64,000 nt of DNA, from contig JAKCFJ010000001.1 in NCBI GenBank assembly GCA_025041175.1, forward strand, positions 1-64,000. Direction: 5' to 3'. The DNA is from Halobacteriales archaeon YIM A00010. GTDB lineage: Archaea; Halobacteriota; Halobacteria; Halobacteriales; Haloarculaceae. A program made the translations under genes and the position numbers. Positions 6,003-45,085 of this stretch are shown here, one piece after another; position 1 is the stretch's first letter, and each line of letters begins with the position of its first letter. Under the pieces are notes generated by a model. That model saw nothing but the letters and a program-made list of their open reading frames with translations, searched no databases and was not told where the DNA came from.

Positions 6003-6059
6003 TTTCACTGTATCGACGTTCGTTCCATCAGTACCTTTATGTGTGATGGGGCAGCGAAG

Positions 6060-6159
6060 AATACGTGGGAACGCCAGCCAACGACGTGGCGCGCGTTCAT
6101 TGAAACGCGCCGGGTGCTAAGGTCACCCGACGCTGGGGTTCCCATCGCACGAGAATCCC
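6060..6159 (+). promoter_or_regulatory. Predicted structured 5' leader, copy A
   Basis: A TATA-like CTTTATGTG at about 6035-6043 lies upstream of a leader with three hairpins. Hairpin 1: GCGCGTTC / GAAACGCGC at about 6089-6110. Hairpin 2: CGGGTG / CACCCG at about 6111-6129. Hairpin 3: GGGGTTC / GAATCCC at about 6135-6159, ending directly at the ATG. The same three hairpins, with different loops and a compensated third stem, precede the decayed copy at 23139. This suggests a cis-acting RNA, perhaps controlling translation of the microprotein. Confidence 0.55.
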
Positions 6160-6306
6160 ATGATGGGAAACGCATCAGAGGCATGTAACGGTGTCGCATC
6201 GTATCAAGAAAACGAGCAGCGCACGCACTGCCCGGTGTGTGGCCGGCCGGTTCGCACGCGTCTGGAACACCGGACGGGCTGTCCGTTGGGGCGGTGGTGG
6301 CGATGA
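6160..6306 (+). CDS. Zinc-finger microprotein (48 aa)
   Basis: A 48-aa protein with a Cys/His cluster CPVCGRPVRTRLEHRTGC (residues 24-41) that looks like one zinc finger (C-x2-C ... H-x3-C). The remainder is short and polar. The start is the first of two adjacent ATGs at 6160, matching the position of the ATG in the second copy of the locus. Its TGA overlaps the next ATG (cgATGA), so it is translationally coupled to the 185-aa partner. It has a structured leader upstream. The function is unknown; small haloarchaeal zinc-finger proteins often act as regulators, but that is inference. Confidence 0.75.
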   Translation: MMGNASEACNGVASYQENEQRTHCPVCGRPVRTRLEHRTGCPLGRWWR

Positions 6307-6860
6307 CGTTGCCGTTGTTCCAGTTCCGGAATCAGCGGGGGGAGGTGGTGAACCTCTCGGCTGCCACGGATCGGGCGGAGATCGTGACGGCCGAACTGTA
6401 CCACAGTATCGACGTGAGTGAGGGGTTGTGGTGCAGACCGTGCCAATCGACGGGCTGCGCGCACGCCACCCAGATCGAGCAGATACTCGCGACCGCCGGG
6501 CTTGGTAGAACCCGAACGGGCGGGTACGACGAACTGCCGGGGATCGCACGATTCACGCGCTACTGCGCTACCGGTGAGACGATCATCGAATGCTGGTTCG
6601 ATAACGGCGCGTGTGTCCGATTCCACGAACAGCGCGATGGCGACGTGATCCAGTCCGTGTTCACGCCCGAGGACTCGCGCGAGCCGGCCGAGATCACGGA
6701 CAAGCCGGATGCCGAGAGCGCGCCCGCGTGTCTGGTCAAAACACTCGTGGAGTACTGCAAGTATCGCCAGCGCGGCGATCTCGCTGGCTTGCGCCAGCGT
6801 TATCCCAACCTAGCCCGCGTCGTCGGTGCGACCGCCGCTGCATCCACCACCGACGATTGA
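6303..6860 (+). CDS. Conserved hypothetical protein, partner of the zinc-finger microprotein
   Basis: A 185-aa acidic soluble protein starting MTLPLFQFRNQRGEVVNLS. A Cys/His cluster CRPCQSTGCAH at about residues 44-54 could bind a metal. I do not recognise the family. The start is set by the ATGA overlap with the microprotein; a longer open frame exists upstream in the same frame but it covers the microprotein coding sequence. A close relative lies at 23282-23881, interrupted by a hairpin insertion. Conservation of both genes, the overlap and the leader in two places argues that the pair works as a unit. Confidence 0.8.
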   Translation: MTLPLFQFRNQRGEVVNLSAATDRAEIVTAELYHSIDVSEGLWCRPCQSTGCAHATQIEQILATAGLGRTRTGGYDELPGIARFTRYCATGETIIECWFDNGACVRFHEQRDGDVIQSVFTPEDSREPAEITDKPDAESAPACLVKTLVEYCKYRQRGDLAGLRQRYPNLARVVGATAAASTTDD

Positions 6861-7392
6861 CAGACAACCGTAGCGGAGCTGTGCGGAGGCGGAGCAGTCG
6901 CGGCGCGGTAGCGGAGGCGGAGCGGTCGCGGTTGCGGAGGCGGTCGCGTGAGTACACCCACCGCGAGCGCAAGCGAGCGGATTTTTTTCGCCCACGTTTT
7001 TTGCGTTCCCGCGAGCGCAGCGAGTGGGAACCAGCGAGTCGTAGCGCGAACGCAGTGAGCGACCGACTCGCCAGGCGAGGGTGAGCTTCGCTCACCCGAG
7101 CGGAAAAAAGGTGGTGGATCAAAAAGGTGGGTGGCATTCGTACACGCGTTGCGCATCGTATAAGTAAGGTCCGGGCATACGCGTCGTTGATGAAGGTTTT
7201 TCGTGATCCCGCACGTGGACGACTGCCACCGCGACGGTTTCCGTCGATCGGCGTCGAGTGGAATCGGACGCGTTCGACTGTCGAGCCGGGCACGGCCAAA
7301 GCCACAGTCGGCGTCGACAGCGTCGGTCCGGCTCCCCCCGAGACCGGGTCGACGCTCGGCCATCGGAGGTGGTGGTAGTGGTGTCGGAGTTC
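6861..7392. other. GC-rich repeat region without a supported gene
   Basis: This stretch has imperfect direct repeats of GCGGAGGCGGAGC-type units (6876-6948), T-runs at 6982-6988 and 6997-7002, and a perfect hairpin GGGTGAGC / GCTCACCC at 7079-7097. The many open frames on both strands are Arg/Ser-rich low-complexity sequences typical of antisense or noncoding GC-rich DNA. I see no family I can name. Confidence 0.6.
6960..7002 (+). terminator. Probable transcription terminator of the 6160-6860 unit
   Basis: Two T-runs on the sense strand (seven T at 6982-6988 and six T at 6997-7002) follow a short GC-rich stem CCGC / GCGG. Archaeal termination is promoted by T-runs, so transcription of the two-gene unit probably ends here. 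Confidence 0.5.
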
Positions 7393-22842: not shown

Positions 22843-23049
22843 TAATTAAATTCTACAAATTTCGTATTAAACGTTCCGACAGTCCAATCTCCGCGACCCG
22901 AGTAGATCCAAACCCGATGGAGAATCCCGGTTCTCTCGTCTCCACGGAGTACCATGATCCGTTGCTGAACGAGCACGGATCTGTTTCTCGTAGTGAATGA
23001 TTTTCGATAAATAAATAACTTTATATGTGGTGGGGATACCAAACGAAAT

Positions 23050-23138
23050 GGAGGGCGCAGCCACATGTTGCGCGCGTTCGAAAGCGCGCCGGGTGTGCAC
23101 TCACCCGACGCTGGGTTCTCCAGTTGCAAGAGATACCC
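23050..23138 (+). promoter_or_regulatory. Predicted structured 5' leader, copy B
   Basis: A TATA element CTTTATATGTG at about 23020-23030 precedes a leader matching copy A. Hairpin 1: GCGCGC / GCGCGC at about 23071-23089. Hairpin 2: CGGGTG / CACCCG at 23090-23107 with a different loop. Hairpin 3: GGGTTCTC / GAGATACCC, ending at the ATG at 23139. The third stem differs in sequence from copy A but still pairs, which supports an RNA structure. Confidence 0.55.
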
Positions 23139-23279
23139 ATGACTGGGAATGAATCAGAGACATGTAACGGTGTCGCATCGTATCAGAATGATAACTAGAG
23201 AACGCGTTGCCCGGTATGTGGCCGGCCGGTTCGGTCGCGCCTCGACCACCGGATGGGCTGCCCGTTGGGACGGTGGTAG
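23139..23279 (+). pseudogene. Decayed zinc-finger microprotein, copy B
   Basis: This aligns along its length with the microprotein at 6160. It starts MTGNESETCNGVASYQNDN and then has an in-frame TAG at 23196-23198. Past the stop the same frame reads RTRCPVCGRPVRSRLDHRMG and CPLGRW, so the zinc-finger part is still conserved. The end (TAG at 23277-23279) is 2 nt before the next ATG rather than overlapping it. It is broken unless the stop is read through. Confidence 0.75.
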
Positions 23280-23281
23280 CG

Positions 23282-23881
23282 ATGAGTTTGCCAGTGTTTC
23301 AGTTCCGGGATCGATTGGGGGAGGCGGTGAATCTCTCGACCGTTGAGGATCGAGAGACGATCTCGAAGGCCGAGCTGTACCACATCGTCGATGTCGGTGA
23401 GGGAGTCTGGTGTCGCCGAGCGAAGCTCGGCTGCTAACCGAAACTCTCCGAGTTTCGGTGATGCCGACCGTGCCAGAGTACAGGCTGCGCGCACGCCACT
23501 CAGATCGAGCAGATCTTGGCGACTGCCGGGCTTGGTCGGTCTCGAACGGAGTACGACGAGTTGCCGGGGATTGCCCGCACCACCCGGTACGACGATACGG
23601 GTGAGAGGGTCGTCGCCGGCTGGTTCGAGAACGGTGGGCGCGTTCGGTGCCACGAGCAGCGTGATGGCACCGTCGTTCAGTCGGTGTTCACTCCAGAGGA
23701 CGAGCGAACCCCGGCCGAAGAGACCGAGAATCACGACGCAGAGAGCGCTTCGGCACGTCTGGTCGAAACGATGGTGGAATACTGTCAGCATAGACAGCTC
23801 GGTGACTTTGATGGCTTACGGCAGCGCTATCCCAAACTGGCGCGCGTCGTGGGCGAGCCCACCGCTGTATACGGGGACTGA
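23282..23881 (+). pseudogene. Decayed partner gene, copy B, interrupted by a hairpin insertion
   Basis: This is a relative of the 185-aa protein at 6303. The first 50 codons (MSLPVFQFRDRLGEAVNLST...) align. Then 51 bases at 23413-23463 are inserted within the WC(R)PC motif, bringing in-frame TAA (23435) and TGA stops. After it the same frame continues CRPCQSTGCAHATQIEQIL to the end at 23881. The 51 bases are a multiple of three, so the frame is kept but closed. Confidence 0.75.
23413..23463 (+). repeat. 51-bp hairpin insertion, TCTCCGA type
   Basis: It contains two hairpins: CCGAGC-GAA-GCTCGG (23416-23430) and CCGAAACTC-TCC-GAGTTTCGG (23438-23458), the second flanked by CTGCTAA and TGATG. 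The same arrangement, with a different but complementary stem, occurs at 48442-48474. Its limits are given by comparison with the intact gene at 6303. Confidence 0.7.
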
Positions 23882-44327: not shown

Positions 44328-44567
44328 CTACTGTAACTCGATCTCGATGTCGCCTGCGATGTCCCGGATAACGGCGTCGCACAGCGGGCAGTCGGGCACG
44401 GCGACCATCACATCGTCGCCGGTCTCGATGCCGATTTCGAGCGTCGATTGGCACTCACACGCCGGACAGACATTCGTCCGGCTCCAACAGTGCAACAGGA
44501 TGGCCTCTTCAACGTCTGCTTTGATGTTAGCGATGCCTTCAAGGTCGTTTGGGTTAGAATCGAACAT
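44328..44567 (-). CDS. Small double-CxxC zinc-ribbon protein
   Basis: A 79-aa protein with NVCPACECQSTLEIG (CxxC-x-C, about residues 32-46) and VPDCPLCDAVIRD (CxxC, about 57-69), a complete four-Cys zinc ribbon. It is acidic and cytoplasmic. The function is unknown. A damaged relative lies at 48282. The stop is 15 nt from that of the convergent 2-hydroxyacid dehydrogenase gene. Confidence 0.75.
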   Translation of the reverse strand: MFDSNPNDLEGIANIKADVEEAILLHCWSRTNVCPACECQSTLEIGIETGDDVMVAVPDCPLCDAVIRDIAGDIEIELQ

Positions 44568-45085
44568 GGTCTTCTAGCCGGTATGGAGACCACAGTCGGG
44601 TGTCTTGAGCACCCGGCACCCACACGATCCGTGTGGGTACTTTCGATGTGTGCGGCCTCCGATCCCATTCTTGCCTCGTTATGATATAAAACTCTAGGCT
44701 ATCGGATTGGTCGTGTTGTTGTATTGATCGGTGGGGGATAGGGAGCGGTGGCTATCGGTTGGGTGTGGTTTCGGAACTGGTGGTTTCGTCGTGACTGCTG
44801 TGGATGTAACTGGTCGGTTTGGAGTCGAGGTGAGGTTTCGATGCCTGGTTCGCTGCTGGCACAGTTGAAATGGGGTGTGAAATTCCATGGAGCGTCTCGA
44901 TAAAGCCTTTTCCACTCGTTTCAGCGCTATCCCGCTTCGTGGACTCCCGCTGTACACGGATGGTATAACAGTCAACGAAGGATAGCACCAATACGTTCCG
45001 AGACACGCATCGCTCCTACCAACGATCCACGTCCGGACTCCGAACGACCCATCGAATTATCCGTGCGGAGTGATACATAACTGGT
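44568..45085. other. Gap of about 520 bases with a G+T-rich strand segment
   Basis: 44700-44880 is markedly G+T-rich on the + strand. GTTTCGATGCCTGGTT at 44835-44850 recurs with one change at 48541-48556. Open frames on the minus strand here are Ser/Thr-rich and match nothing I know. Confidence 0.4.

Follow-up and report, generated by a model that had tools for sequence, protein, structure and literature searches.

A candidate cis-acting RNA switch in the 5' leaders of zinc-binding protein genes of haloarchaea

What kind of element precedes a zinc-finger microprotein gene of Halobacteriales archaeon YIM A00010, and is it restricted to the two loci at which it was first noticed? The window, i.e. 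the whole stretch of DNA analysed here, comprises 64,000 nucleotides (positions 1 to 64,000 of contig JAKCFJ010000001.1). The host is probably a hyphae-forming haloarchaeon of Halocatena type. The first-pass annotation had described two loci 17 kb apart sharing a TATA element and a leader of three successive hairpins, and had read these as selection on an RNA structure. The TATA element (CTTTAT-N-TGTG-N-TGGGG) is present at both loci, and both possess related leaders that end at an ATG (6160 and 23139). All features of the window are listed in Table 1.

Table 1. Leader RNAs and associated features in the 64,000-nucleotide window
Feature	Position	Strand	Description	Evidence
Promoter, copy 1	6025..6049	+	TATA box 6035-6040 within palindrome CCATCA-N13-TGATGG	sequence
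Leader RNA (predicted cloverleaf), copy 1	6067..6143	+		fold; R2 match, E 2.7e-16; covariation
P1, copy 1	6067-6072/6138-6143 and 6074-6078/6132-6136	+		predicted fold
P2 region, copy 1	6079-6090	+	variable; unpaired in predicted fold of copy 1	
P3, copy 1	6091-6097/6104-6110	+	GCGCGTT/AACGCGC	
P4, copy 1	6111-6116/6124-6129	+	CGGGTG/CACCCG; variable loop 6117-6123	
Alternative hairpin P5, copy 1	6135..6159	+	6135-6141 (P1 3' strand) with 6153-6159; GGGGTTC/GAATCCC	
Zinc-finger microprotein, copy 1	6160..6306	+	48 aa, CPVCG...H...GC	homologues in other copies
Partner protein, copy 1	6303..6860	+	185 aa; start overlaps microprotein stop (ATGA); conserved WCRPCQSTxCxH	
Promoter and leader, copy 2	23019..23138	+	TATA 23019-23024; leader RNA 23051-23120	R2 match, E 2.3e-11
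Helices, copy 2	P4 23090-23095/23102-23107; P5 23113-23120/23130-23138	+		sequence
Remnant genes, copy 2	23139..23881	+	microprotein with early stop (MTGNESETCNGVASYQNDN*); partner ORF broken by palindromic insert	ORFs
Third leader RNA, diverged	44585..44660	-	P5 GGTCT/AGACC, ends at ATG	R2 match, E 5.2e-7
Protein behind third leader	44328..44567	-	79 aa, CPAC...CPLC	ORF list

The interval 6060-6159 folds more stably than its dinucleotide shuffles (z -3.5; none of 200 as stable). In both copies the minimum-energy fold is branched, with a long outer helix P1 (in copy 1 6067-6078/6132-6143, GGGAACGCCAGC paired with GCTGGGGTTCCC) around P3 and P4, and an inner P2 is also present in most copies. 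The architecture predicted by folding is thus a cloverleaf, P1 enclosing P2, P3 and P4, or a three-way junction. Three successive hairpins were rejected as the main fold because P1 competes with the third of them: this hairpin, P5, is an alternative structure built on the 3' strand of P1, and in copy 1 it abuts the ATG. All three hairpins first described (P3, P4 and P5) can form and their loops differ, but their successive arrangement does not hold. The loop of P4 (6-7 nt) is hypervariable within a near-invariant stem, with 37 distinct 7-mers among 38 Halocatena copies. A general inversion of this loop was dismissed, mean identity to reverse complements being at chance (0.248 vs 0.243), and one near-identical pair (L163/L165) suggests, by eye, such an inversion.

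The distance from TATA box to P1 is fixed at 28-30 nt in 71 copies, so transcription probably starts just 5' of P1. The palindrome CCATCA-N13-TGATGG around the TATA box is common to most chromosomal copies and is a possible operator. Palindromes around or including the TATA box occur in many elements (6025-6049; 5' of L240, L249, L254 and L266) and suggest dedicated transcription regulators.

A family of two copies, as first proposed, was abandoned: a DNA search of the own genome found 32 dispersed chromosomal copies, 77-85% identical and on both strands, with only short matches on the other contigs; a third, diverged element lies in the window, and further members of the RNA family are spread through the class. 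Genomes of the same genus possess 1 to 19 matches each, the named relatives being Actinarchaeum halophilum YIM 93972, strain YIM A00013 and Halocatena marina. Two covariance models were built, R1 from 20 Halocatena leaders and R2 from 49 diverse leaders. Within the own genome R2 lists 38 matches, of which 36 have E < 1e-4. Among 391 Halobacteria genomes, R1 matches 66 (27 genera) and R2 115 (46 of 86 genera); a phylum sample of 197 genomes contains no leader match outside the host order. Seven genomes of one family hold 9-18 matches each; this family is taken as Natrialbaceae because similar elements sit on Natrialbaceae plasmids. Such a covariance search had been suggested with the original description, and it does recover the leader before microprotein homologues, with significant covariation. 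No Rfam 15 family reaches its gathering threshold over the leader, the unrelated tRNA and S15-leader matches lying elsewhere in the loci. A literature search, thin on subscription journals, found no description of the leader, and the consulted sections of Tang et al. 2023 (PMC10067837) do not mention the family. Two candidate origins were discarded: a viral one, the partner protein being missing from viral contigs and a leader query finding no match among phage records, and integration beside tRNA genes, which occur in the retrieved flanks of only 3 of 35 loci.

Within Halocatena not one of the 426 pairs of the P1 outer helix in 71 copies is lost, despite ten different 5' hexamers, and none of 5000 shuffles of the distinct combinations does as well. 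P5 gives no significant covariation signal within the genus. Across haloarchaea, covariation in an alignment of 49 leaders, which was fitted to the model and hence leans towards it, is 0.455 compared with 0.169 after shuffling (0 of 500 shuffles as high) and at most 0.093 when slid. Both sides have changed in 23 of 30 pairs, and P1 outer helix and P4 are paired in 98% and 99.7%, respectively. A strand test independent of this alignment took 16 representatives, each differing in the shared strand (Y), and shuffled their upstream (X) and pre-ATG (Z) partners. Mean pairing energy is -19.2 vs -12.6 kcal/mol shuffled for X:Y (P1) and -10.7 vs -7.8 kcal/mol for Y:Z (P5), with 0 of 5000 shuffles reaching either value; shuffling controls incompletely for relatedness, and compensatory triples are also seen inside lineages, e.g. 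GGCTTC/GAAGCC to GGTTTC/GAAACC in L177 and L182. Tested separately in 80 elements, P1 and P5 each exceed all 2000 shuffles. The triple compensation is found directly 5' of the ATG (GGGTTC/GAACCC, GGCTTC/GAAGCC, GGTTTC/GAAACC, GGTCTT/AAGACC, GGTTGTC/GACAACC, GCTGTTTC/GAAACAGC), and across diverged representatives 0-1 nt separate the end of P5 from the AUG. These data strongly support selection for RNA structure, as first supposed, and the covariation claimed for the third stem is significant across haloarchaea but not within the genus.

Conservation of both P1 and P5 on a shared strand is, as read from these comparisons, the hallmark of an RNA switch with two stable states. The computed energies of the two folds lie close together (median gap 2.8 kcal/mol, at most 5 in 49 of 83 elements), bearing in mind that they apply to 1 M NaCl, from which the haloarchaeal cytoplasm differs. 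In 58 of the 83 elements the P1 state is computed as the more stable, which, like the lack of significant P5 covariation within Halocatena, would suit a static structured leader, in which the P1-P4 junction alone matters, whether for stability or for binding a protein, and the complementarity behind P5 is incidental. We consider this improbable: in diverged representatives P5 pairs better than in any of 5000 shuffles, and it stops almost exactly at the AUG. The preferred reading is a switch: two conserved and mutually exclusive helices, one of which stops at the AUG, point best to on/off control of translation, and the 5' leader of these genes for zinc-binding proteins probably acts in cis as such an RNA switch. 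In the ON state P1 would close the three- or four-way junction with P3 and P4, leaving the nucleotides before the start codon free. In the OFF state the 3' strand of P1 would swap to the 5-9 nt directly 5' of the AUG, and the resulting P5 would block translation initiation. We infer direction of control, ligand and transcription start from sequence comparison.

A full Halocatena copy consists of the TATA box, P1 around P2, P3 and P4, the 3' strand of P5 directly 5' of the ATG and a microprotein of 44-69 aa; intact copies add a partner of about 180 aa that overlaps or closely follows. The microprotein and coupled partner first described are intact in copy 1, but in copy 2 both are broken: its microprotein stops after 19 aa, and the palindromic insert in the partner ORF bears a further stop. 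Copy 2 (at 23 kb) is, judging by its reading frames, a pseudogene with an intact leader. The window microprotein has no Pfam or NCBIfam family at cut-off and falls outside the two-CPxCG class, possessing one CPVCG plus an H...GC half. The likely zinc-binding 79-aa protein behind the third leader also lies outside this class, its CPAC and CPLC lacking the G. The partner is confined to the genus, bar one weak partial match among the 391 Halobacteria genomes. It has no significant Foldseek match, and its best VIA-align Z (5.6, to the KhtT N-domain) may simply reflect a common arrangement. Its assignment as a SWIM protein was rejected (no Pfam SWIM match; a probability of 0.2% by hhalign when compared with leader-linked SWIM proteins), the CxxC-x4-CxH being a mere resemblance to the SWIM arrangement.

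Zinc-like motifs are found in downstream ORFs at 38 of 56 loci, compared with 7 of 224 control windows, and the leader targets appear to be mostly zinc-binding proteins, i.e. zinc-finger microproteins and SWIM proteins. Natrialbaceae-type loci carry the leader, a short ORF (mostly 29-60 aa) and then a zinc-finger microprotein, and in L186 the latter two are fused. Three-way-junction versions, without P2, precede SWIM proteins; four of these, from genera other than that of the window, are confirmed by Pfam SWIM. Of 12 plasmid SWIM regions just 3 have an R2 match (two more contain diverged look-alikes by eye), so SWIM genes can do without the leader, and the association runs mainly from leader to zinc protein. 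Own-genome plasmid copies L067 and L068 precede a short ORF and an AstE/AspA-like enzyme gene; not all targets are therefore zinc-finger proteins.

Several further features of these loci were noted. The first ORF of Natrialbaceae-type loci (L157-L196) holds a hairpin, CGAGAC-ATAAA-CGTCTCG, in which changes from GAGAC/GTCTC to GGGAC/GTCCC alter two amino acids together; this suggests a constraint at the nucleic-acid level inside the ORF. The Haladaptatus plasmids NZ_CP085339.1 and NZ_CP085302.1 have SWIM-protein matches at up to 24 places on one plasmid, a further large expansion of a gene type capable of carrying the leader. In L203 and L250 the leader and a short ORF are followed, by eye, by a putative CRISPR Cas7/Csf2-like protein, a 130-aa piece of which has no Pfam match.

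Since the targets are mainly small zinc-binding proteins, autogenous control is favoured: the switch is most likely controlled by the encoded proteins, the small zinc-binding protein acting as the trans-acting factor that would bind the invariant P3-P4 junction. Against this, the downstream families differ and one common protein ligand is not obvious. A single small ligand behind unrelated protein families would be simpler than many proteins, and the P3-P4 junction might instead bind a metabolite or metal, Zn2+ being the obvious candidate, and so shift the balance between P1 and P5. A near-invariant P4 stem adjoining conserved junction nucleotides, as well as a majority of targets that look zinc-binding, would fit such a small-ligand riboswitch. 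Known riboswitches usually govern genes for the synthesis or transport of their own ligand. No zinc transporter was seen behind the leader, in contrast to such ligand-related targets; the loop of P4 is hypervariable, and a large single-stranded core free of variation was not observed either. We regard a small-ligand riboswitch as unlikely, and equally unlikely the wider reading of a new haloarchaeal class of ligand-sensing RNA switches (possibly for zinc or redox state) that coordinates zinc-binding microproteins and SWIM proteins across the genome as one regulon, with an expansion beyond 30 copies in archaea that form hyphae and spores. As a class of explanation, the riboswitch-like or protein-bound leader originally proposed is still the best, but its three-hairpin architecture and its restriction to a pair of loci have been replaced.

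Compensatory structure and two exclusive conserved helices, one masking the start, are both found by comparison, and by kind the leader is on this evidence a cis-regulatory RNA switch outside the known Rfam riboswitch and ribosomal-protein leader families. Ribosomal-protein leaders of Halobacteria, such as S15-Halobacteria (RF03143), are thought to be bound by their own product (PMC7247131). Like that leader, the new one is structured, lies 5' of a haloarchaeal gene and is linked to a nucleic-acid-binding protein, but it differs in sequence, fold and targets, in its exclusive P1 and P5 and in reaching dozens of copies per genome. The fluoride riboswitch of Thermococcus kodakarensis was, as of 2021, the sole natural archaeal riboswitch shown experimentally, and none had been shown in haloarchaea (PMC8241225). 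With translational riboswitches the leader shares a junction domain and an alternative helix masking the translation start; it differs in that its targets are small zinc-binding proteins and the stretch directly 5' of the AUG is masked, in which no Shine-Dalgarno site was identified. Brz is a small CPxCG zinc-finger protein of haloarchaea (PMC2253796). The window microprotein is likewise a very small zinc-finger protein, but with a single CPxCG plus H...C, and the novelty lies in the leader RNA. This RNA is common and compact, its candidate expression platform is clear, and the class in which it occurs includes tractable hosts; RNA-based control in archaea thereby becomes directly testable. 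As a candidate regulon it unites many zinc-binding microproteins not described before, and its largest expansion found is in a lineage of hyphae- and spore-forming archaea.

The Halocatena copies have a history of their own. In a second species 13 of 15 copies adjoin a gene that also flanks a copy in the own genome, hence the copy positions are old. Orientation relative to the neighbour is opposite at six of the 13 matched sites (L015-L046 compared with L009 and L070-L089). Copy similarity is 0.79-0.81 within species, 0.693 at matched sites and 0.691 for unmatched pairs; the excess within species over matched sites indicates that copies evolve in concert. The 32 dispersed copies, the differing orientations and the concerted evolution would all be expected of palindromes acting as DNA, within a mobile or recombining repeat unit, with the RNA fold secondary. 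Old positions do not suit this explanation, nor does the lack of any transposase-like protein by Pfam or NCBIfam, and the TATA spacing, the AUG at the end of P5 and compensatory P5 across unrelated genes need a reading at the RNA level; we hold the DNA-level explanation to be very improbable. A mobile or transposable element as such was rejected, with no transposase family and copy positions largely shared between the two species.

L009 has its left flank in common with L015 and its right flank with L037, which suggests ectopic recombination. Many units are bordered or split, in either orientation, by REP-like palindromes (CACCTTTTTT...AAAAAAGGTGG) accompanied by GC-rich tandem stretches, e.g. 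at 6900-7120 and in the flanks of other copies. A two-hairpin insert of about 45-50 bp breaks the partner ORF at one shared point (23415-23465, L026, L027, L034 and L042).
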